The position numbers and the translations under genes are program-made. Shown in pieces: positions 1 to 11,299 of a stretch of DNA of 11,299 nt. The notes beneath the pieces were generated by a model. The model saw only the letters and a program-made list of their open reading frames with translations, ran no database searches and was not told where the DNA came from. Within the stretch, counting starts at the first letter, position 1; each line of letters starts with the position of its first letter. Source of the stretch: Candidatus Binatia bacterium (GTDB lineage Bacteria; Desulfobacterota_B; Binatia; UBA9968; JAJDTQ01); contig JAJDTQ010000081.1 of NCBI GenBank assembly GCA_022827045.1, positions 1 through 11,299 on the forward strand. The letters are read 5' to 3'.

Positions 1-128
1 CCTATGAGAAGCGGCGCATCGATCGCACCTTCGCCAACCTGAACCGGAAGGCCCGGACTCTCGGCTACCGGCTTGTCCAGGCCGCCGTCAACGAAGAAGT
101 ACCCAACGGCGCACCGGCAGCGGCTTAG
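1..128 (+). CDS. C-terminal tail of an unidentified protein, possibly a transposase (partial)
   Basis: An open frame enters from the left edge (first full codon at position 3) and ends at TAG 126-128, giving 41 residues. It starts YEKRRIDRTFANLNRKAR, continues TLGYRLVQ, and ends in an Ala/Pro-rich tail. The basic, helical look (R..RTF..LNRKA..LGY.LV) recalls the last residues of some insertion-sequence transposases, but this is resemblance only and no catalytic residue is visible. Its stop codon overlaps the stop codon of the convergent permease (125-127), and that permease lacks its expected C-terminus. This suggests a recombination or insertion junction here. It could equally be the end of an unrelated host gene. 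The coding frame is moderately sure; the identity is weak. Confidence 0.4.
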   Translation, partial: YEKRRIDRTFANLNRKARTLGYRLVQAAVNEEVPNGAPAAA

Positions 129-1702
129 TTACTCAAGAGATTGAAGATCAGGGTGGCGACGACCTCTGAGTTTCCGGTGTTCATCACCAGCGGCAGGGTC
201 AGGTCGCGCGCGGAGAGCATGCCGACCATCAACGCGGAGTAGAAGATCGCCGGCGCCATCAGGGGAAGAAAGATGCGACGGAACGTCTCGAGCATCGAGA
301 CCCCGGACACGTAGGCGGCCTCGTCCAACTCGAAGTGGATCTGCAGTGAGGCCGCGTTCATGGTCCGGGTGCAGTAGGCCAGCATCCGGGTCCCCATGGC
401 GATGGCCACCAGCCAGATGGTCCCGAACAGCGGGATCCAGTGATACATCTCGATGCCGATGAACTGGAACGCGACGCCGGTCACGATGGTGGGCACCGCC
501 GGCGCCAGGAACACGATGTTGTCCGCCCAGCGTGCCGTGCGGTTGCGGCTGCGTGTCACCACCCACGTGACGCTGGTGGCCAGCGACGCGGCCACGACGA
601 TGGCGCCCGCCATCAGGATCAGCGTGTGGCGAAGCGGCTCGCCGATCCACGCCAACGCGTCGCGGAAGCTGTCGAGGTTCACCGTATCCAGCGCCGCGAT
701 GGACGGCGGCTGGAAATAGGGCACCAGCGCCACCCAGACGATGGTGACGACCGGAATCCCGATGCTGACCGCCACCCAGACGCCGACCCAGAAATAGGCG
801 GCCCAGCGCCAGCGCCCCAGCGGCTGCGGCGCCGACGCCCGTACCTTGCCGCCCACCACCGCGTACTTCCGCGCCTGCTTGAGGAACCGGGCGTAGAACA
901 GGATGGCGACCCCGCAGATGACGAACAGCACCACCCCCGCCGCGCCCGCGAAGCCCAGGTTGGGCGGGCCGTCGGTCTCCGCGATGGCGTCGTAGATCCA
1001 CAGGACCAGCACGTCGCCGGGCATGCCGATGATGGCGACGAAGTCGAACATCTCGACGCCAAGCACGAAGTAGAAGATGCAAACCGCCACCATGCTGGGG
1101 CCCAGAAGCGGCAGCACGATGCGAAGCACCGTGTAGGTCTTGGATACCCCGCTGACCCAGGCGGCCTCCTCCAGGGATGCATCGAGGTTCCTGAAGGCCG
1201 GCAGCATCATGAAGACCCCGCCCGGGACCAGCACGATGCCCTGCAGGAAGCAGATCCAGGAGACCTGGTAGACGTCGAACAGCGCGCCGCCGGAAAACTT
1301 GGTCATCCCGAAAAGCGTGTTGACGAGCCCGGAGGTGGGATTGAACAGCCACACGTAGGACATGGCGGTGATGAAACCGGGGATCGCGAGCTTTGCCGTC
1401 AGCAGCGTGAACAGGCCGGTGCGGTACGGAAAGTCCGTGCGCGAAAGGAGCCAGGTGAAGGGAAAGGCGAAGATGAACATCCAGAAGACGGTGCCGACAC
1501 CGAGAAGGGCGGTCCTGCCGGTGACCCCGACAATGTGCTTCTGGGTGAGCAGCTCGACGTAGTTCGCGAACGTGTACTGTCCATCGACATCCTGGTCCGC
1601 GAAGCTGGTCAGGATATTGCCGCCGACCGTGACGCAGACCAGCGCCAGGCCGGAAATGGCCAGCAGGTAGACCCAGCCGATACCCAGCAGTCTAGCTCGC
1701 AC
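125..1702 (-). CDS. ABC transporter fused double-domain permease (FbpB/ThiP type), C-terminally truncated
   Basis: Inner-membrane channel subunit of an ATP-driven importer, 525 residues. Two permease units are fused, as in ferric-iron (FbpB) and thiamine (ThiP) transporters. Each has the EAA loop that docks onto the ATPase: EEAAWVSGVS at about 178-187 and DEAAYVSGVS at about 460-469. Hydrophobic helices run throughout, starting at about residues 7-27. I chose GTG at 1702 because GGGGAGGA lies just upstream and the 11-base overlap with the ATPase gene is normal coupling. An ATG at 1774 would add 24 polar residues and an 83-base overlap. The first half has about 100 residues after its EAA loop, including a final helix (about 251-274). 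The second half has only about 65 and stops at IFNLLSN, so the last helix is missing where the convergent frame ends. Substrate specificity cannot be read from the sequence. Confidence 0.88.
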   Translation of the reverse strand: MRARLLGIGWVYLLAISGLALVCVTVGGNILTSFADQDVDGQYTFANYVELLTQKHIVGVTGRTALLGVGTVFWMFIFAFPFTWLLSRTDFPYRTGLFTLLTAKLAIPGFITAMSYVWLFNPTSGLVNTLFGMTKFSGGALFDVYQVSWICFLQGIVLVPGGVFMMLPAFRNLDASLEEAAWVSGVSKTYTVLRIVLPLLGPSMVAVCIFYFVLGVEMFDFVAIIGMPGDVLVLWIYDAIAETDGPPNLGFAGAAGVVLFVICGVAILFYARFLKQARKYAVVGGKVRASAPQPLGRWRWAAYFWVGVWVAVSIGIPVVTIVWVALVPYFQPPSIAALDTVNLDSFRDALAWIGEPLRHTLILMAGAIVVAASLATSVTWVVTRSRNRTARWADNIVFLAPAVPTIVTGVAFQFIGIEMYHWIPLFGTIWLVAIAMGTRMLAYCTRTMNAASLQIHFELDEAAYVSGVSMLETFRRIFLPLMAPAIFYSALMVGMLSARDLTLPLVMNTGNSEVVATLIFNLLSN

Positions 1703-2861
1703 GAGCCGCTTCCTCCCCTGCGAGTCCGCCCTCGAGGCCTTCCAGGTCCAGACCGTCCGACGGCGCAACCACAACGGTTTCCGCCGGCGGGAAACGGAGA
1801 CGGATCGAATCCCCGCGGTTGATGGCCTCCCGGTGATGCCGCCTCACCCTGACCGGCTGGCCGCAGGACTCGACGGTATGCACGTAACCCTCGCCCACGT
1901 AGCTCGACGAGGCCACCGTGCCGGTGACAAGGTTGCCCGCGTCCCCCGAAACGTCCCCGCCGATCTCGATGTCTTCCGGGCGGATCCCAAGCATGCAGCT
2001 CGCGCCGGCGGCGAAACCGTCGCGGCTGGTCAATCGCGCGTCGAGCGGGCCAAAGGCCGTCTCCACGCGGGCCGTGTCCCCGTTGCCGCCCCGATAGACG
2101 GCCGGGAAAATGTTCATGTCGCCAATGAACCGCGCCACGAACTCGCTTTCAGGACGGTGGTACACGGCTTGCGGGTCGCCGATCTGGACGATCCGGCCCT
2201 CCGACATCACGGCGATGCGGTCGCCGGTCTCAAGGGCCTCCGCCTGGTTGTGGGTGACGTGGATTGTGGTCAGGTTGAGGCGGTGCATCAGGTCGCGCAT
2301 CTGGGCGCGGAGCCGGACCTGGAGCTTGAAGTCCAGGTTGCTCAGAGGCTCGTCCATCAGCAGGATGCGGGGCTGCAAGGCCAGCGCACGCGCCAGCGCC
2401 ACCCGCTGCTGCTGGCCGCCGCTGAGCGTGATGACCGGGCGTGCCGCAAGCGCGTCGAGCCCGAGCATCTCCAGCACTTCGCCGACGCGGTCCTGCACCG
2501 CGTCCCGCGCCATCTTGAGCCGGCCGCGGCGGAGCGGGAAGGCGATGTTCTCGAACACGTCCATGTGGGGCCAGATGGCGTAGGACTGGAACACCATGGC
2601 GATGGGACGCTGATCGGGGGGAACGAACACGCCTTTGCCGGCGTCGAATATGGGGTGGCCGTCGATGAGGATCTCGCCGGCAACGGGGCGTTCCAGCCCG
2701 GCGATGGACCGCAGCATGGTGGTCTTGCCGCAGCCCGACGGACCCAGCAGGACGAAGAACTCGCCCGCGGCAACGTCCAGGTCGATGCCGCGCAGGGCAT
2801 GCACGACGCTGTCTCGCAGTACGAACTTGGCCTCGAGACGCCTGGTCTGCAGCATCGCCAT
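1692..2861 (-). CDS. ABC transporter ATP-binding protein (FbpC/PotA/UgpC-like, with TOBE domain)
   Basis: Cytoplasmic ATPase that powers the adjacent permease; 389 residues, full length for an importer ATPase with a regulatory C-terminus. All nucleotide-binding motifs are visible: Walker A GPSGCGKT (40-47), Q-loop Gln92 in VFQSYAIWPH, signature LSGGQQQR (146-153), Walker B ILLMDEP (166-172), D-loop SNLD (174-177) and H-loop His204. Residues after about 255 (RPEDIEIG, then GEGYVHTVE) fit the TOBE domain of the iron, polyamine and sugar importer group. The start is ATG at 2861, with a second ATG two codons later; no strong ribosome-binding site is seen, so coupling to the hydrolase gene 24 bases upstream is likely. 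The 3' end overlaps the permease start. Family assignment is firm; the transported substrate is not known. Confidence 0.93.
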   Translation of the reverse strand: MAMLQTRRLEAKFVLRDSVVHALRGIDLDVAAGEFFVLLGPSGCGKTTMLRSIAGLERPVAGEILIDGHPIFDAGKGVFVPPDQRPIAMVFQSYAIWPHMDVFENIAFPLRRGRLKMARDAVQDRVGEVLEMLGLDALAARPVITLSGGQQQRVALARALALQPRILLMDEPLSNLDFKLQVRLRAQMRDLMHRLNLTTIHVTHNQAEALETGDRIAVMSEGRIVQIGDPQAVYHRPESEFVARFIGDMNIFPAVYRGGNGDTARVETAFGPLDARLTSRDGFAAGASCMLGIRPEDIEIGGDVSGDAGNLVTGTVASSSYVGEGYVHTVESCGQPVRVRRHHREAINRGDSIRLRFPPAETVVVAPSDGLDLEGLEGGLAGEEAARAS

Positions 2862-2885
2862 GGGTTCGGCTTTCGCGTCGGAGGC

Positions 2886-3898
2886 CTAGTTCGGGGGCTC
2901 CAGGACTCCTTCGTCCTGCAGTCTCTTGATGGTGGCCTCGGCGGTCTCGCGCGCGTCGCCGCCGGTGTCGCTGGGCATGAAGGTCTGCTTCTCGAACTCC
3001 CGGCCGAACAACTCCGACTTGACCTGTGCCGGGAAGTTCATGAAGACCTCGGTGCGGCGGCGACGCTGCCGGTCGAGATCGATGGTCGAGACCAGCACGG
3101 ATTCGCCCGCACCGTCGATCCTCGCGTCAACGTGGCCGAGATAGTTGACCACCGTGGAGCCGCCGCGCGTGGCCTGGGCGGCGCTGTACCGTCCGCTCAA
3201 CGCACCGGCGTTGGCGGAGGCCACGTAGACGAGGTTTTCGTAGGCGCGCGACCGGCGCACCTGGTCCCGCGTCTCGGCCATGGGGCCGTTGGTCTCGGTG
3301 GTCGGGTGCAACAGGATCTCCGCGCCGTGAAAGGTCAGGGCGCGGGACAACTCGAAGAAGTTCACGTCGTGCTCAACGATCATGGCGAGCCGCCCGTACG
3401 GCGTTTCGAGCACCGGAAACAGGGAGTCCTCTCCGTACCGCCGGACATACTCCGTGTAGACGTCGGCCGGACAGACGCTGGGGATCAACCCTTCCACGTT
3501 GTGCTCGTGGCACTTGCGGTAGCGCAGCTCCACCGTGCCCGACGGGCCGATGATGAAGCCCGAGGTGAACCAGACCTCCGGCCAGTCCGGATCGCGCTCG
3601 AAGGCGGCTCCCGCAACGTAGACCTGGTGCTCCCGGGTGAACTCGCCGATGAGGTCGGTTTCCGGTCCCGGTATCTCGATACAAACCGTCTTCCAGTCGT
3701 CCGCGGTGCGCTTGTGGTTGAAGCCCTGACACCAGGCTTCGGGAAACACCACCAGACGCGCCTCGTCCCGGACCACCGTCGCCTCCGCGATCTCGAGACC
3801 GCGCCGGAGGTTGCGGCCGACGACGTCGTCCCTGCGCGCCGGGTCGTCGATGATCTCGATGGACGACTGGATACAGGCGATCTGGAATTTTTCGGCAT
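2886..3898 (-). CDS. Carbon-nitrogen hydrolase (nitrilase superfamily) paralogue, catalytic Cys replaced by Glu, with apparent 5' frameshift
   Basis: Nitrilase-superfamily protein, about 337 residues if one base is restored. The fold is clear from FQIACIQ through VVFPEAWCQGF, LRYRKCHEHN, the GRLAMIVEHDVNFFE elbow and RRSRAYENLVYVASAN. Of the Glu-Lys-Cys triad, Glu54 and Lys129 are present, but the nucleophile position (Cys in the usual xCYD motif) is Glu176 in VEHD. This suggests a non-hydrolytic or regulatory role. The domain frame has no ATG, GTG or TTG start near its beginning. An ATG at 3898, two bases after the upstream stop, opens the wrong frame: inserting one A in the five-A run (plus-strand T run 3888-3892) gives the natural start MPKKFQIACIQ. 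Possible causes are a sequencing error, a real disabling mutation, or unusual recoding. Its closest visible relative is the gene just upstream. Confidence 0.8.
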
Positions 3899-3900
3899 GG

Positions 3901-5055
3901 TCAAGCCAGAGCGCGGTTCTGCCCTTCCGTGGGAGCCGCCGGCTCGTGTCCCTCCGGCGCCGCGTAGACCCCGTCCCGGAGATAACGCGCGATGACGTCC
4001 TCCGTGCTCTGCCGCGCCTCGGACTTGTGCGCGATGGGCTGCTCGAGCCAGCGGTTGATCCCGGTGGCCTGGTGCCGGGTGTATTCGCGCGCATAGATTT
4101 CGGTGCGTGACTGGACCAGGATGTTGTCGCGTATCTCCGCACGCCGCTCCCTGAGCGCCCTGAGGTCGATGGGGCCGATGGCCAGCGCCTCCCCGGGGTT
4201 GGGCGCTGCGCCGGCCACCTTGCCGTTGAAATCGACGATCTCCGATCCGCCGTGGGAACGGTGCAGGGGCGAGATTTCACCGTCGCGCCGCTCCTGGAAA
4301 TTAAGCCCCGGCGAGTCCGCGAACACGCCCCCCGACACCTGCGCGGCATAGCCGCCGTGATTGGAGGAGATGACGTACATGCAGTTCTCGTAGGCGCGAG
4401 TACGGCGGCTCATCTCCCACGGCTCCCGGTGCGGGCCATAGGGCTCGCCGGTGCAGTGCAGCAGGATTTCAGCCCCGTGCTGCGCGAAGATGCGCGGCAT
4501 CTCCGGGAAGTTGATATCGTAGCAGTTGATGAGCGCAAGCCGTCCGATCTCGGTGTCCACCACCGGAAAGAGCGCGTCTTCGCCGCCCTCGTTCTTCACG
4601 TACAGGTCGTAACAGCCGGTGGGCGTCGAATAGGTCGTATGCCCCTGGACGTCGGCGCCGTTGACCTTGCGGTAGCGCAGCAACAGGTCGCCCGACGGCC
4701 CGAACAGGTAGGCGGAGTTGAACCAGCGATTCGGGTAGGCCGGATCGTATTCCATGGTCCCGCCGGCGACGTAGGCACGGTTGATGCGCGCGAAGTTGGC
4801 CAGGGGTTCCAGCTCCGGGCCGGGAATCCGAAGAGCGATACGGGTCCACTCTTCCACCGACCGGACATGCTCGACGCCGGTCAGCGAGAACTCCGGCAGG
4901 ACATAGAGCTTTGCCTGGCCCCAGCGGCAGCTCACGTACTCCATCAGCGACAGGTAGCGGTTGACGTTCTCGCGGATGATGGCGTCGCGCCATTCCGGTT
5001 CCCGGACGTGACGGATAATGGTCTGAACGGCGACAGCCGTGTACTTGTCGATCAT
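3901..5055 (-). CDS. Carbon-nitrogen hydrolase (nitrilase superfamily; amidase- or nitrilase-like), triad intact
   Basis: Predicted cytoplasmic thiol hydrolase of 384 residues that would cleave a non-peptide C-N bond in an amide, carbamoyl compound or nitrile; the exact substrate is unknown. The catalytic Glu-Lys-Cys triad is complete: Glu55 in VLPEFSLTG, Lys130 in LRYRKVNG and Cys178 in LINCYDINFPE, followed by HGAEILLHC and the RTRAYENCMYVISSN strand. Length is close to aliphatic amidase or formamidase (about 340) plus a C-terminal extension rich in Glu, Pro and Ala. The start ATG at 5055 overlaps the monooxygenase stop as ATGA and has GAGGGAG just upstream; a longer upstream open frame is only read-through of the neighbour's DNA. 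It shares length, motif order and local phrases with the downstream hydrolase, consistent with tandem duplication. Superfamily is firm, function open. Confidence 0.92.
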   Translation of the reverse strand: MIDKYTAVAVQTIIRHVREPEWRDAIIRENVNRYLSLMEYVSCRWGQAKLYVLPEFSLTGVEHVRSVEEWTRIALRIPGPELEPLANFARINRAYVAGGTMEYDPAYPNRWFNSAYLFGPSGDLLLRYRKVNGADVQGHTTYSTPTGCYDLYVKNEGGEDALFPVVDTEIGRLALINCYDINFPEMPRIFAQHGAEILLHCTGEPYGPHREPWEMSRRTRAYENCMYVISSNHGGYAAQVSGGVFADSPGLNFQERRDGEISPLHRSHGGSEIVDFNGKVAGAAPNPGEALAIGPIDLRALRERRAEIRDNILVQSRTEIYAREYTRHQATGINRWLEQPIAHKSEARQSTEDVIARYLRDGVYAAPEGHEPAAPTEGQNRALA

Positions 5056-6224
5056 GCGTGAACTCCCTCTGCCTCCGCGGCCGGCGCCCCTTCTTCCAGG
5101 CCGAGACGGCGCGCCACGGGAAATACCTCGTCGCGGAGAAGGCTCATGGTCTGACGGACGCTCTCGTCGGGCACGTTGCCGATCTTGACGCTGAGATTGG
5201 TCACGCCGTGACCGAACTCCTCGTAGAGGCGCGTGATCTGCTCGATGGCCATGTCCGGCGTCCCGCACATGACCAGGCCGCGCTCCATCCGTTCCTCCAG
5301 CGAGAGCTGGTTGTGCGTCCGTAGCTTGGTCGTCTGGCGCTCGGCGTCCTGGTCGTCCTTGAAGTAACGGGTCTTCTGCACCACCAGCCGCTGGGCCGTG
5401 CGGATGCCGCCGCCCAGAACGTTGAAGAAATAGTCGTAGCCCCGGCGCAGGGTTTGGATCGCCTCGTCGCGGGTCGGGGCGACACAGCAGTTCATGGCGA
5501 GGATGATGTTGTGCGGCCGCGGTTCCCAGCCGAGCTTTCGCGCGTGTTCCCGGTAGACGTCGATGGAGTGGTGCGCGGTCTCGTAGTCCTGGACGCGCAG
5601 GACGCCCATGGTCGCCCCGTGCTCGGCGGCCATGCGCGCGGAGCCGTCGCTACTCGCCGACATCACGATCTCGGGGTGTGGCTTCTGGGCCGGCTTGGGC
5701 CAGATCGATACCGCGCGGAACTGGTAGTATTCGCCCTCCCAGCCGAACGGCTCCGGTTCGGTCCAGGCCTTCTTGATCAGCTCGATGGCCTCGTTCATGC
5801 GCCCGTACGACTCGCTGGGCGCAACGTTGTAGGCAACGTATTCGTGGGGGATTCCGCGCATGAAACCGGCGACCAGCCGCCCGCCGGAGATCATGTCAAG
5901 CATGGCGTATTCCTCGGCCACGCGGATCGGGTTGACGATCGGGACGATGTTCCCGGATTGCAGGATCATCGCCTTGGTGGTGCGCTCCGCGACGCAGGCG
6001 CCTATCAGGTTGGGATTCGGCATCAGCCCGTAGGGGCTCATGTGGTGCTCGTTGTTGCCGATCCAGTCGAAGCCGCAGTCTTCGGCGAACACCTTGGTGT
6101 CGATCCCGGCCCGGAAGATCCGCACGCCCTCCTCCGGGCTGAACTGCTTGTTGGCCACCGGCCAATCCTGCCCCACCTTCTCGACCCCGGTGTAGGGCAT
6201 GTGGTGCGTGTACGAGAATTTCAT
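5052..6224 (-). CDS. LLM-class flavin-dependent monooxygenase (bacterial luciferase-like)
   Basis: Predicted flavin-dependent oxidoreductase of the luciferase-like fold, using reduced flavin and oxygen (or F420 in some relatives) on a small organic substrate; 390 residues from ATG 6224. Family signs include the N-terminal strand MKFSYTHHMPY, DWIGNNEHHMSPYG (about 53-66), VNPIRVAEEYAMLDMISGGRLVAGFMRG in two consecutive stretches (98-124), the central VMSASSDGSARMAAEHG, and a C-terminal helix with MCGTPDMAIEQI. ATG 6224 was chosen because GAAGGAAG stands just upstream and the conserved fold begins there. A TTG at 6332 would add 36 polar residues without a clear ribosome-binding site. It is the first gene of the operon, and its stop overlaps the hydrolase start by 4 bases, so oxidation of the imported compound probably precedes or accompanies C-N cleavage (inference). 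Confidence 0.9.
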   Translation of the reverse strand: MKFSYTHHMPYTGVEKVGQDWPVANKQFSPEEGVRIFRAGIDTKVFAEDCGFDWIGNNEHHMSPYGLMPNPNLIGACVAERTTKAMILQSGNIVPIVNPIRVAEEYAMLDMISGGRLVAGFMRGIPHEYVAYNVAPSESYGRMNEAIELIKKAWTEPEPFGWEGEYYQFRAVSIWPKPAQKPHPEIVMSASSDGSARMAAEHGATMGVLRVQDYETAHHSIDVYREHARKLGWEPRPHNIILAMNCCVAPTRDEAIQTLRRGYDYFFNVLGGGIRTAQRLVVQKTRYFKDDQDAERQTTKLRTHNQLSLEERMERGLVMCGTPDMAIEQITRLYEEFGHGVTNLSVKIGNVPDESVRQTMSLLRDEVFPVARRLGLEEGAPAAEAEGVHA

Positions 6225-6415
6225 CAACACTTCCTTCAGGGGCCGCGGCCCGTTCCAATGAGAGAGGGAGAATTCTGGACAGTACGCATGGTGCGGATTT
6301 GTATCGTCCGCCAATGTCTCCTGGTTTGTCAACTACTAACCGAACGCGCGCGAAGCCCGGGGGTCGCTGCGCCAAGGCATTCACCAGCGGTCCCAAGCCA
6401 CTGCTTGCGGAAACG

Positions 6416-6453
6416 ATTCCGAATTGGACGGAGGTCCATTCCGAATTGGACGG
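6416..6453. repeat. Two exact 16-base direct repeats, 22-base period
   Basis: ATTCCGAATTGGACGG occurs at 6416-6431 and 6438-6453 with six bases (AGGTCC) between. The repeats are exact and outside any coding region. They could be transposase-binding sites of an insertion-sequence end, or operator-like iterons. Confidence 0.85.
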
Positions 6454-6463
6454 ACACTGACCC
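6416..6463 (-). mobile_element. Possible insertion-sequence end (IS21-like multiple terminal repeats)
   Basis: Two exact copies of ATTCCGAATTGGACGG (6416-6431 and 6438-6453) recur with a 22-base period and are followed by GGACACTGACCC (6452-6463). Read on the minus strand this is GGGTCAGTGTCC, then two copies of a GTCCAATTCGGAAT unit. Several short tandem copies next to a terminal TGTC-like end resemble the multiple terminal repeats of IS21-family elements; this is from memory of the family, not a match. No istA or istB gene is present, so at most it is a solo or relic end. It begins only 13 bases past the serS stop. Confidence 0.4.
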
Positions 6464-6476
6464 AAGGGCCTGTACC

Positions 6477-7882
<1,406 letters not shown>

Positions 7883-8254
7883 CTACGGTTCCGAAAAATC
7901 GAACGCGCGGCGGACGTGGCTGACCGCCGGCGGATTCGACCCCAGCGAAATGCCGACCACATCGAACTGCACGTCCCGATCATGTAAGCGGTGTCTGCTG
8001 AGGTAATGGAGCGCCACGCGCTTCAGCCGGCGCTGCTTGGCGGCATTGACCGCTTCCACCGGCGCGCCGGACGTGTCCACCCTGCGGGTCTTCACCTCCA
8101 CGAACACCACCGCGCGTTTGTCGAGAGCGATCAGGTCGATCTCGCCCAGGGGGCACCGGTAGTTGCGCTCGACGACGGCATAGCCCTGACGTTTGAGGAA
8201 ACGTGCAGCGAGATCCTCTCCGGCCTTGCCCAGGGACTTCCGCTCAGCGCCCAT
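7883..8254 (-). CDS. yraN: YraN/UPF0102 family predicted endonuclease-like protein
   Basis: Small protein of 123 residues, matching the usual length of about 120 for this widespread but poorly characterised family. It has the order of conserved blocks expected of the Holliday-junction-resolvase-like PD-(D/E)XK fold: GKAGEDLAARFLKRQGY (9-25), the GEIDLIA strand with Asp40, VVFVEVKTRR with Glu53 and Lys55, then VNAAKQRRL and the RRAFDFSEP tail. ATG 8254 is chosen because the family begins right there; the rnhB stop overlaps it by 11 bases. The upstream GGG touches the start codon, so initiation probably depends on coupling; in-frame GTG and TTG codons lie slightly upstream as alternatives. Position next to rnhB is the common arrangement in bacteria. 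Family call is firm; biochemical role unproven. Confidence 0.94.
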   Translation of the reverse strand: MGAERKSLGKAGEDLAARFLKRQGYAVVERNYRCPLGEIDLIALDKRAVVFVEVKTRRVDTSGAPVEAVNAAKQRRLKRVALHYLSRHRLHDRDVQFDVVGISLGSNPPAVSHVRRAFDFSEP

Positions 8255-9035
8255 CCCTTTTTCTGGCACCAAAGAGCGGCACCGGCAAGCCTGCCGCGAC
8301 GGTCTCGGCAGACCCCGACGCACCCTGCTCCCGGGATTCTCTGACGGGCTTGAAGCTGCGGCGGTGGATGGGACAGGGCCCATGCCGGGTCAGGGCCTCG
8401 GAGTGGCGGCGGCTGCGATAGCCCTTGTGGCTGGCGAACCCGTACTCGGGATAGAGATCGTCCAGTTCCGTCATCATCCGGTCCCGGGCCACCTTGGCGA
8501 CGATGGAAGCCGCCGCGATGGAGAAGCAGAGCCGGTCGCCGCCCTTGACGGTGCGCTGCGCGGGAGCCGCCGCCCACGGCCCGCCGTCCTCCATCAGGCT
8601 CGCGGCGGGAATGCCATACGGTCCGTCGATCATGAGGAAGTCCGGCGTGACCGCCAAGCCCCTCACGGCGCGGGCCATGGCCAGGAGACTGGCCCGCAGG
8701 ATGTTGAAGCGGTCGATCTCCCGTGAATCGGCCACGCCCACCGCCCACGAAGCGGACTGTTCCTTGACCCACTCGGCCAAGCGCTCGCGCTTCCTGGCGC
8801 TCAAGAGCTTCGTGTCCTTGATGTCGGGATTGAAGGCGCCGGGATCGAAGATCACCGCCGCGGCCACCACCGGCCCCGCCAGGGGGCCGCGCCCAGCCTC
8901 GTCCACGCCGGCGACCCATCGAAACCCCCGCGAAAGCGCATCCGTTTCGCAGGACGTGCCGTCGGGTCCGCGGCGCTCAGGGGCGAGCAGGCGGCCGTTT
9001 CGGGACGGTTCGGGCGGGGTTCGTTTGCCGGGCAT
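8244..9035 (-). CDS. rnhB: Ribonuclease HII
   Basis: Cytoplasmic nuclease that cuts the RNA strand of RNA-DNA hybrids and removes single ribonucleotides misincorporated in DNA. From ATG 9035 it has 263 residues, longer than the usual 200-220. The core starts at GVDEAGRGPLAGPVVAAAV (43-61, catalytic Asp45 and Glu46), then FLMIDG (Asp137), KGGD (Asp167), AAASIVAKVARDRMM (174-188), and GFASHKGY...HRRSFKPV near 199-231. Compared with E. coli RNase HII there are about 12 extra residues between Asp137 and Asp167, a 40-residue basic N-terminal lead, and a 30-residue low-complexity C-terminal tail. The start could be later, since the lead is not conserved. It overlaps yraN by 11 bases and diverges from gatC. 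Confidence 0.96.
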   Translation of the reverse strand: MPGKRTPPEPSRNGRLLAPERRGPDGTSCETDALSRGFRWVAGVDEAGRGPLAGPVVAAAVIFDPGAFNPDIKDTKLLSARKRERLAEWVKEQSASWAVGVADSREIDRFNILRASLLAMARAVRGLAVTPDFLMIDGPYGIPAASLMEDGGPWAAAPAQRTVKGGDRLCFSIAAASIVAKVARDRMMTELDDLYPEYGFASHKGYRSRRHSEALTRHGPCPIHRRSFKPVRESREQGASGSAETVAAGLPVPLFGARKRDGR

Positions 9036-9043
9036 TCGAGGCG

Positions 9044-9050
9044 TATGATA
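9044..9050. promoter_or_regulatory. Candidate bidirectional -10 box for rnhB and gatC
   Basis: TATGATA lies in the 25-base gap between the divergent start codons (rnhB ATG at 9035, gatC GTG at 9061). Read rightward it is TATGAT; read leftward it is TATCAT. Both resemble the sigma-70 -10 hexamer, and both would start transcripts only a few bases before the start codon. No convincing -35 box is seen in either direction. Symmetric -10 elements that fire both ways are known in bacteria; its use here is inference. Confidence 0.35.
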
Positions 9051-9060
9051 GAAAATCGGC

Positions 9061-9348
9061 GTGAAAATCACCAGCGAAGAGGTCCGGCACGTGGCCACCC
9101 TCGCCCGTCTGGACCTCACTCCGGACGAGCAGGAACAGCTCGCCGGCCAGCTCGACCGCATCCTCGAATACATGGACAAGCTCAACGAGCTCGACACCGA
9201 CGGCGTCGAGCCCATGTCCCACGCGGTGGACGTGGTCAACGTCCTGCGCCCGGACCGGGCCGTCAACGAGCCGCGGACCGAGGCGCTGCTCAGCAACGCT
9301 CCTGCCCGGGACGACGACTTCCTCAGCGTCCCGAAGATCATTGAATGA
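9061..9348 (+). CDS. gatC: Asp-tRNA(Asn)/Glu-tRNA(Gln) amidotransferase subunit C
   Basis: Small structural subunit of the GatCAB amidotransferase, which turns misacylated Glu-tRNA(Gln) or Asp-tRNA(Asn) into the correct amide form; GatC wraps around GatA and stabilises it against GatB. 95 residues, the normal length. Family pattern is complete: ITSEEVRHVATLARLDLTPDE at the start, ILEYMDKLNELDTDGVEPMSH in the middle, then LRPDRAVNEP, LLSNAPA and the closing FLSVPKIIE. The start is GTG at 9061, right where the family begins. No good ribosome-binding site is placed before it, and a -10-like box is only 11 bases upstream, so a near-leaderless message is possible. gatA follows after a 79-base spacer. 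Confidence 0.97.
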   Translation: MKITSEEVRHVATLARLDLTPDEQEQLAGQLDRILEYMDKLNELDTDGVEPMSHAVDVVNVLRPDRAVNEPRTEALLSNAPARDDDFLSVPKIIE

Positions 9349-9373
9349 CACCACGAACGGTAGCGGCCCTACT

Positions 9374-9424
9374 TCCCGTTCGTCCTGAGCGGAGCGAAGT
9401 GCAAGCGGAGCGAAGTCGAGGGAC
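9374..9424. repeat. Dispersed-type intergenic repeat with internal duplication, in the gatC-gatA spacer
   Basis: The spacer carries CCGTTCGTCCTGAGCGGAGC followed by GAAGTGCA and a second AGCGGAGCGAAGTCGAGGGA. The unit AGCGGAGCGAAGT occurs twice exactly (9388-9400 and 9404-9416, period 16). The TTCGTCCTGAGC...GAAGTCGA(A)GGGA pattern is familiar as a dispersed intergenic repeat in many GC-rich genomes (recalled, not searched). Its right end, GAGGGA, sits 4 bases before the gatA ATG and serves as the ribosome-binding site. Confidence 0.65.
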
Positions 9425-9427
9425 GCC

Positions 9428-10891
9428 ATGACCATCGACCCGAGTTGCCTCAGCATTCACGAGCTCCACGACCGCCTGCGGTCCCGTGACCTGAGCGCCG
9501 TCGAGCTGGCGGAAGCGCTGTTCGACCGCATCGAGGCCACCGACGAAGCCATCGCCGCCTACCTCGCCGTGTGCCGCGAGCTGGGCATGGAGGACGCGCG
9601 CCGGGCGGACGCCAAGCTCGCCGGCGGTGACGCGGACTCGAAGCTCCTGGGCATCCCCGTGGCGCTCAAGGACGTGCTCCTCACCGAGGGCGTGCACACC
9701 ACCTGCGCGTCGAAAATCCTGGACGGCTTCACGCCGCCCTATGACGGCACCGCCGTGCGGCGCCTCCGCGAGGCCGGAGCGGTGGTGCTGGGCAAGACAA
9801 ACATGGACGAGTTCGCCATGGGCTCCTCCACCGAGAACTCCGGCTACTCCATCACCCGCAATCCGTGGAACCTCGACCACGTTCCGGGCGGTTCCTCGGG
9901 CGGTTCCGCGGCCGCGGTGGCCGCCGGCCAGTGCGTCGCCGCGCTGGGCACCGACACCGGCGGTTCCATCCGACAGCCGGCGTCGTTTTGCGGCATCGTG
10001 GGCCTAAAGCCCACCTACGGACGGGTCAGCCGGTACGGCGTGGTGGCGTATGCCTCGTCGCTGGACCAGGTGGGTCCTATGACCCGGGACGTCACGGACT
10101 GTGCGCTGCTGCTCCAGGCCATTGCCGGCCGCGACCCCGCGGATTCCACCTCGGTGGATGTGCCGGTGCCGGACTACGTCGCGGCGCTTACGGGAGATGT
10201 GAAGGGATTGAAGATCGGCGTGCCGAAGGAGTACTTCGCCGCCGGCCTTCATCCCGACGTGGAACGGGCGGTGCGACAGGGCATCGGCGAGCTGGAGAAG
10301 GCTGGCGCCGTGGTGACCGAGGTGTCACTGCCGCGCAACGACTACGCCGTGGCCGCCTACTACGTCATCGCCGCGGCGGAGGCCAGCTCGAACCTGGCCC
10401 GCTACGACGGCATGCGCTACGGCCCGAGGGTCCAGGCCGAGGACCTGACGTCCACCTACATGAAGAGCCGCGCCCAGGGATTCGGGCACGAGGTCAAACG
10501 GCGGATCATGCTGGGCACCTACGTGCTCTCCGCCGGCTACTACGACGCCTACTACCTCAAGGCGCAAAAGGTGAGGACCCTGCTCAAGCAGGACATGGAA
10601 TCGGTCCTGAAAGAATGCGACGCCATCGTCGCCCCCACCTGCCCCACCACCGCCTTCAAGGTCGACGAGATGACTCACGACCCGCTGCAAATGTACCTCT
10701 CGGACATCCTCACCATCTCGGTGAACCTGGCCGGCCTGCCGGCCCTGTCAGTGCCCTGCGGGTTCGACGACGCCGGGCTCCCCATCGGCATGCAGATCAT
10801 CGGCAGGCACTTCGACGAGACCACGGTGTTGCGGCTGGGGTACGCCTACGAGCAAGCAACCGAGTGGCATACGCGGAGGCCAGAGATTTAG
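9428..10891 (+). CDS. gatA: Asp-tRNA(Asn)/Glu-tRNA(Gln) amidotransferase subunit A
   Basis: Glutaminase subunit of GatCAB; it hydrolyses glutamine and feeds ammonia through a tunnel to GatB, which amidates the misacylated tRNA. 487 residues, the normal length. The amidase-signature catalytic triad is intact: Lys81 in GIPVALKDV, cis-Ser156 in PGGSSGGS and nucleophile Ser180 in [12 protein letters not shown], followed by [13 protein letters not shown]. The C-terminal part keeps PTCPTTAF and the [13 protein letters not shown] and [10 protein letters not shown] blocks. Start is ATG 9428 with GAGGGA ahead of it. It forms a two-gene unit with gatC; gatB does not follow, since the next gene is on the opposite strand. 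Its presence suggests the organism makes Gln-tRNA and/or Asn-tRNA indirectly. Confidence 0.98.
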
Positions 10892-10937
10892 CCCCGCCCC
10901 CGAAAGCCCTGCACTCCCTGCCTCAGCCCGCCCCTGG

Positions 10938-10958
10938 ACCCCGGGTCAAGCCCGGGGT
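10938..10958. repeat. Palindrome with 8-bp GC stem in the convergent gatA/thiolase gap
   Basis: ACCCCGGG (10938-10945), loop TCAAG, CCCGGGGT (10951-10958), a perfect inverted repeat followed by GACGG. The TGGACCCCGGGTCAAG...GGTGACGG shape is a well-known dispersed palindrome type in GC-rich bacteria. It sits 47 bases after the gatA stop, between converging genes, and could act as a transcription or mRNA-end barrier for both, although no T-run follows on either strand. Confidence 0.7.
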
Positions 10959-11004
10959 GACGGAAAGCGGGATTCCCCGCGTTGCCGGTCCGAGCGTCCT
11001 CGGT

Positions 11005-11299
11005 TCAAGCGGTACCCAGGATCAAACTCGCATGCATGGCCAGACTGCCGCCGTGGCCGCTGATGATGCCGACCTTGGCGTCGGGCACCTGGCGCTCGGG
11101 CTCGACCTCGTTGCCTCGGAGCTGGCGGGCGCCTTCGGTGAGGTGGAGCATTCCTTCCAGGTGGGCCTGGGACAGGAGGCCGCCGTGGGTGTTGAGGGGG
11201 ATCTCGCCGTTGATGCCGATGCGGCCGTCCTTGACGAAGTCCTTGCCCTCACCCTTCTCGCAGAAGCCGTAGTCCTCCAGGGTGATCATGGCGGTGATG
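11005..11299 (-). CDS. Thiolase / lipid-transfer-like protein, C-terminal end (partial)
   Basis: The frame runs off the right edge, so only the last 97 residues are seen; the internal ATG at 11289 is not the start. It reads ITAMITLEDYGFCEKGEG, then DGRIGINGEIPLNTHGGLLS, LEGMLHLTEGARQLRG, and ends GIISGHGGSLAMHASLILG. This matches the C-terminal half of the acetyl-CoA acetyltransferase/SCP-x thiolase-like family, with the NTHGGLLS loop carrying the conserved His. Where classical thiolases have a Cys in the final CxG motif, this one has Ser (SGHGG), as in the non-specific lipid-transfer and retro-aldolase-like branch. Those proteins act on acyl-CoA in fatty-acid or sterol side-chain metabolism. 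It converges with gatA. Family is fairly sure; reaction is not. Confidence 0.85.
   Translation of the reverse strand, partial: ITAMITLEDYGFCEKGEGKDFVKDGRIGINGEIPLNTHGGLLSQAHLEGMLHLTEGARQLRGNEVEPERQVPDAKVGIISGHGGSLAMHASLILGTA

Follow-up and report, generated by a model that had tools for sequence, protein, structure and literature searches.

A nitrilase and a cysteine-less paralogue encoded with a flavin monooxygenase and an ABC importer in Candidatus Binatia

Organization of the locus

The window analyzed here is the whole of an 11,299-nucleotide stretch of a Candidatus Binatia genome (contig JAJDTQ010000081.1, positions 1 to 11,299), and its main feature is an operon that contains two adjacent members of the nitrilase superfamily, termed here NitA and NitB, only the first of which has the catalytic cysteine. 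Five open reading frames (ORFs) lie on the minus strand, and the ORF list and Pfam agree with the original prediction on their families. LLM (5052..6224), of 390 amino acids, is a luciferase-like flavin mononucleotide-dependent monooxygenase (PF00296, Bac_luciferase, 1e-49), with at least 119 homologues of 58-97% identity among the matches listed besides LLM itself. NitA (3901..5055) and NitB (2886..3898) match PF00795 (CN_hydrolase; 2.8e-36 and 1.3e-27, respectively), their scores of 125.6 and 97.3 bits exceeding the gathering score of 23.2. They are followed by the ATPase of an ATP-binding cassette (ABC) importer (1692..2861; 389 amino acids; PF00005, ABC_tran, 3.6e-35), which carries a TOBE domain (PF08402, 1.9e-11), and by a fused double-unit ABC permease (125..1702; 525 amino acids) with two stretches of PF00528 (BPD_transp_1, 1.1e-14) and without its C-terminus. 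NCBIfam cut-offs were reached by none of the rows listed for the operon proteins (25 of 186 families in the case of the ATPase).

The junctions predicted for LLM/NitA (-4), NitB/ATPase (+24) and ATPase/permease (-11, with the permease starting at a GTG at 1702) were confirmed. The +2 junction between NitA and NitB holds for an ATG at 3898, but this codon and the remainder of NitB are in different frames, the NitB frame of the window being open from about 3890 downwards. The equivalent ATG, two bases past the NitA stop, is in frame in all six relatives, which are metagenome-assembled genomes (MAGs) of one class, three of them titled Candidatus Binatia; among the seven copies compared it is out of frame only in the window. 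The window thus carries, at the very start of NitB (3880-3900), either a small indel or an error in the sequence.

NitA and NitB differ at the catalytic cysteine

In the alignment, NitA has the triad Glu55-Lys130-Cys178 intact, with the cysteine encoded by a TGC at 4522..4524 (minus strand). The full triad is present in 56 of 62 NitA homologues, the other six being short rows in which a site is missing or misaligned. NitB keeps the first Glu and the Lys, but a GAG codon at 3372..3374 (minus strand) places a Glu at the site of the cysteine. Among the 120 matches listed, all 68 homologues whose identity reaches 59% have this Glu (68/68), while the first Glu (66/66) and the Lys (67/67) are kept in every row covering those sites. 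NitB thus belongs to the nitrilase superfamily by its fold and not by its catalytic triad. The original prediction was therefore right as to the fold of both proteins, but one of them has no catalytic cysteine, for which reason two redundant hydrolases were rejected; NitB is more plausibly viewed as a NitA partner. In its next relatives (P0067-P0070, 48-49% identity) Gln replaces the Lys and Gly the cysteine. The best Protein Data Bank matches of NitB, and of a model of the fused proteins described below, are the formamidase AmiF and the aliphatic amidase AmiE.

Median pairwise ratios of nonsynonymous to synonymous substitutions (dN/dS) were calculated from the window and the Binatia copies: 0.102 for NitB (21 pairs) and, over 15 pairs each, 0.039 for NitA and 0.053 for LLM. 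Purifying selection thus acts on NitB, which evolves faster than NitA yet is clearly constrained.

Intact and cysteine-less domains occur in pairs and fusions

Proteins of at least 480 residues were collected among the best 120 NitA and the best 120 NitB homologues listed. All 31 double-nitrilase proteins found in this way combine one intact and one cysteine-less (here, dead) domain; in P0120, whose first domain is split, the Lys was read by eye. The dead domain comes first in 28 of them and the live one in three, and P0287 and P0290 are fusions in the order of the window. Unlike NitB, the fused dead domains mostly lack all three triad residues. As for unfused pairs, NitA and NitB rows have equally long longest contigs in nine cases, a match copied by hand that is not proof of one contig. 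The same holds for NitB and LLM rows in nine cases, the two shortest of which (1,816 and 1,423 bases) are too small for both genes with NitA in between and are regarded as coincidence. In G142, a genome of the same class that has no NitB of the Glu-Lys-Glu (EKE) type, the gene of an intact nitrilase has directly after it one of the Glu-Gln-Gly type, with a binding-protein-like gene next in line. At the gene level this is the arrangement of an enzyme and its prozyme: a catalytic protein and a cysteine-less paralogue, linked or fused.

In five of nine alphaproteobacterial loci with a fused dead-live nitrilase (L006, L007, L009, L011 and L012), the fusion has as neighbours the genes for the large subunit of a molybdenum hydroxylase and for an amidase; at L008, L010, L013 and L015 neither was present in the DNA covered. 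The wider family is thus found in comparable surroundings, an oxidizing enzyme beside a C-N hydrolase. Three other genomes (G149, G150 and G151) have a large expansion of the family, with 17-25 matches of the NitB profile to nitrilase-family proteins in each genome, many of them in tandem or fused.

Seven further CN hydrolases encoded by G003 served as outgroups in a tree whose 16 dead rows comprised the NitB type, the Glu-Gln-Gly type and dead domains taken from fusions. All 16 fell on one side of a branch with 96/96 support, nested among intact rows; the tree is rooted at a weak midpoint (78/95), and two of its outgroups are long. Dead rows of these types likewise grouped together in a tree of 79 rows that had no outgroups. 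The Binatia genomes encode one more Glu-Lys-Cys nitrilase of this subfamily at another place (in G003 at C1:2527854-2528801, locus L082, and in relatives).

Conservation of the block in related genomes

A NitB profile of 39 rows (A1) was run against genome contigs and gave 24 loci, five of which are close (90-95% identity): three in genomes titled Candidatus Binatia and two in genomes titled Deltaproteobacteria. The order LLM, NitA, NitB, ATPase is identical in L001, L002, L003, L004 and L058 (the latter on the G116 contig), as far as the contigs reach: L001 ends inside the ATPase gene, L005 starts at the end of NitA and the G116 contig ends after the ATPase gene. The permease gene lies 3' of the ATPase gene in L003, L004 and L005, and at the edge of another contig in G001 and G002. 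The overlap of LLM and NitA is not conserved; it is also found in L001, and gaps of roughly 90-270 bases take its place in L002, L003 and L004. Since the same gene order recurs in related genomes, the block is more than chance. That related genomes keep these genes together had been set beforehand as a test, and NitA-NitB and the ATPase are together in all six MAGs. The importer likewise recurs with the block in relatives and can be counted as part of it.

The binding protein that the original prediction found to be missing from the window is encoded in relatives exactly where the window breaks off. Its gene follows the permease gene in G002, G003, G004 and G005, and an alpha/beta-hydrolase gene is found downstream of the permease gene in G001, G003, G004 and G005, so that one or both are present in all five genomes covering that end. 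The importer set is thus complete once relatives are included, with the ATPase and a truncated permease in the window and the binding protein (SBP_bac_11, 26.3 bits against a cut-off of 25) in G002-G005. A gene of the vicinal oxygen chelate (VOC) family on the opposite strand is kept in L003, L004 and L005. No relative was found in the viral collection.

Ends of the operon and possible regulation

Similarity of the permease to its relatives ends at position 137 and the ORF stops three residues on, while the permease of L004 has 71 further residues in place of those three. Positions 1..136, with the tail of a plus-strand ORF, are foreign to the operon and may be the end of an insertion sequence. 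A single weak match on a plasmid, to an IS110 transposase (E 0.4, 60% of 40 amino acids), would suggest a transposase of that type. The 124 bases at the left end were not found in G001-G005, in a search without a positive control whose empty result shows little.

Upstream of LLM, on the minus strand, two identical 17-base direct repeats (6416-6432 and 6438-6454) lie 22 bases apart and 192-230 bases from the LLM start. With one mismatch allowed, a degenerate form of the motif occurs in 18 places in five relatives, eight of them upstream of LLM (none in a shuffled control); without mismatch, all six places are upstream of LLM, two each in G001, G002 and G116. G004 has no such motif upstream of LLM. 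The repeats look like a candidate operator. When the region before LLM was inspected by eye for a conventional sigma-70 promoter, a TTGACA was seen without a fitting -10, and none is claimed.

To the right of the operon lie serS, yraN, rnhB, gatC, gatA and the end of a thiolase-like gene, as named from a reading of the ORFs. The same succession of genes adjoins the operon in L001 and L003, and partly in L002 and L004. L003 has in addition, between serS and LLM (6047-7339, minus strand), an ATPase-like gene, assigned to its family by eye, that is absent from the window.

Comparison with known systems

NitA and NitB share with AmiF and AmiE (PF00795) the fold and, in the case of NitA, the Glu-Lys-Cys triad. 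Both are far from the formamidase family NF009803, at 74.8 (NitA) and 73.3 bits (NitB) against a cut-off of 406. AmiF and AmiE are known as homomers of catalytic subunits, unlike the NitA-NitB arrangement proposed below, and enzymes of the nitrilase superfamily are in general portrayed as assemblies of one and the same catalytic subunit. Two unlike nitrilase subunits do form one enzyme in sorghum, NIT4A/NIT4B (PMC5154151), a eukaryotic case from a different branch of the nitrilases; the portion of that text available to us does not mention a cysteine-less subunit. Activation of an active enzyme by a dead paralogue, or prozyme, is described in reports on deoxyhypusine synthase and S-adenosylmethionine decarboxylase of trypanosomes (PMC3663545, PMC5201418). 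The folds there are unrelated, and activation was measured, whereas for NitA-NitB it is proposed here.

In the Rut pathway of pyrimidine degradation, RutA is an LLM oxygenase, RutB a cysteine hydrolase and RutD an alpha/beta hydrolase. The parts list of the present block is similar, with an LLM oxygenase, a cysteine hydrolase, an alpha/beta hydrolase and a transporter. However, RutA is not among the 23 NCBIfam families matching LLM at E 0.001 or better, the hydrolase of the operon is a nitrilase, and the alpha/beta hydrolase reaches 29.8 bits in the RutD family, whose cut-off is 238.5; membership in the Rut pathway is ruled out by these scores. The importer had been described as of FbpB/FbpC type, which is only loosely right: the permease, the ATPase and the binding protein resemble the 2-aminoethylphosphonate/Fe3+/polyamine group, but far below the cut-offs. 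The 2-aminoethylphosphonate importer PhnSTUV2 gives the best NCBIfam resemblance of the permease and the binding protein and the second best of the ATPase, with scores (92.6 against 593, 28 against 392.75 and 306 against 457.7, respectively) that lie far below the cut-offs; an assignment to this or another named NCBIfam importer among those listed was rejected. In the Protein Data Bank, the binding protein finds its best match in a protein that binds pyridoxal phosphate (6wce, E 3.9e-8).

A proposed role for the NitA-NitB pair

The conservation of the genes, the loss of the cysteine, the conserved Glu at its site, the live-dead fusions and the purifying selection are computational observations, and the interpretation that we favor, and hold to be fairly likely, is that the importer and the flavin oxygenase feed a heteromeric nitrilase or amidase made of a catalytic NitA and a pseudo-subunit NitB, the pairing of which we infer. 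The ABC importer, with the binding protein encoded just past the window break in relatives, would take up an organic nitrogen compound that the LLM flavoenzyme would then oxidize. A C-N bond would be hydrolyzed by the nitrilase or amidase, only NitA in the NitA-NitB complex having the cysteine, and the alpha/beta hydrolase encoded downstream in relatives may complete the breakdown. NitB, keeping the nitrilase fold, would replace the second catalytic subunit at the dimer interface of the superfamily, where it could activate, stabilize or tune NitA, complete the NitA pocket, or bind a ligand in its own Glu-Lys-Glu pocket.

Such a pocket could also be a working active site. NitB might be an enzyme with changed chemistry, its former nucleophile position serving as a general base, an acid or a carboxylate nucleophile in another reaction of the same pathway. 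The constancy of its three residues, set against the fused dead domains, and a dN/dS of 0.102 fit this idea. The three sites are among some 79 invariant columns of 39 rows, but about a quarter of all NitB columns are invariant anyway, so that this is weak evidence; moreover, the sister lineages that take part in this pairing carry Glu-Gln-Gly or lack the triad residues altogether, from which it follows that the pairing itself needs no chemistry. Nor did the searches made turn up a known nitrilase-fold enzyme that uses a Glu at that site. We regard changed chemistry as unlikely. A bolder version, in which NitB founds a lineage with its own Glu-Lys-Glu step carried out in complex with NitA (NitB might, for instance, bind or convert what LLM produces and hand it on to the cysteine of NitA), the live-dead fusions being the same two-site machine minus one site, is a speculation to which we attach little probability.

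The genes might instead be neighbours for regulatory convenience only, with NitA and NitB acting apart and the importer serving another compound. This would agree with the variable spacing of LLM and NitA, with the fact that no regulator or known pathway was recognized and with the breadth of the importer group. It is hard to reconcile with the fixed NitA-NitB spacing, with a block whose gene order is repeated in relatives and with fusions that occur in both orders and always join one live and one dead domain, and we consider it quite improbable. The out-of-frame ATG and the truncated permease of the window copy, in turn, could mark NitB as a functionless duplicate in decay. This has been largely refuted, and we give it hardly any credence: the start is in frame in the six relatives, the Glu is fixed over 59-88% identity, and the dN/dS together with the in-frame relatives rules out a pseudogene.

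Several points weigh against the proposed heteromer of NitA and NitB. The physical complex, the activation, the order of steps and the substrate class are all inferred. The cysteine-less NitB need not be catalytically dead, given that Glu and Lys are retained, and its predicted model is only moderate (predicted local distance difference test 74.3, predicted template modelling score 0.78). The EKE type is narrow: in the class of G003, close NitB matches were found in six of 148 genomes, namely the five mentioned above and G116, and the operons are split over contigs in the MAGs G001, G002 and G116. In Alphaproteobacteria-side genomes the NitB profile found none in 317 and none in 385 at E 1e-90, and NitA none in 385 at E 1e-75; some of the homologues listed (P0165, P0174, P0243 and P0262) nonetheless carry an Alphaproteobacteria label. 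In an earlier outgroup tree the dead rows were not one group (two changes), a single clade not being rejected (approximately unbiased test, p-AU 0.44); four of the six rows added to that tree were wrong-frame ORFs, and it was later rebuilt. Finally, six single-domain cysteine-less rows (five Glu-Lys-Ala and one Gln-Lys-Gly) fall outside the tested clade, four of them on the intact side of the 79-row tree. The cysteine has thus been lost more than once.

Live/dead paralogue pairs and heteromeric nitrilases are already known; no description of a cysteine-less bacterial nitrilase partner was found in the literature searched, which mostly leaves subscription papers outside its coverage. If the proposed heteromer is correct, this lineage of intact and cysteine-less units, whether separate or joined in one order or the other, would be a bacterial addition to the known enzyme/prozyme systems. 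It also serves as a warning to annotators, the cysteine-less proteins being named 'predicted amidohydrolase' in the source records. Binatota have been reported in sponges (PMC8262859). For uncultured members of this group the operon represents a concrete candidate for the use of organic nitrogen.

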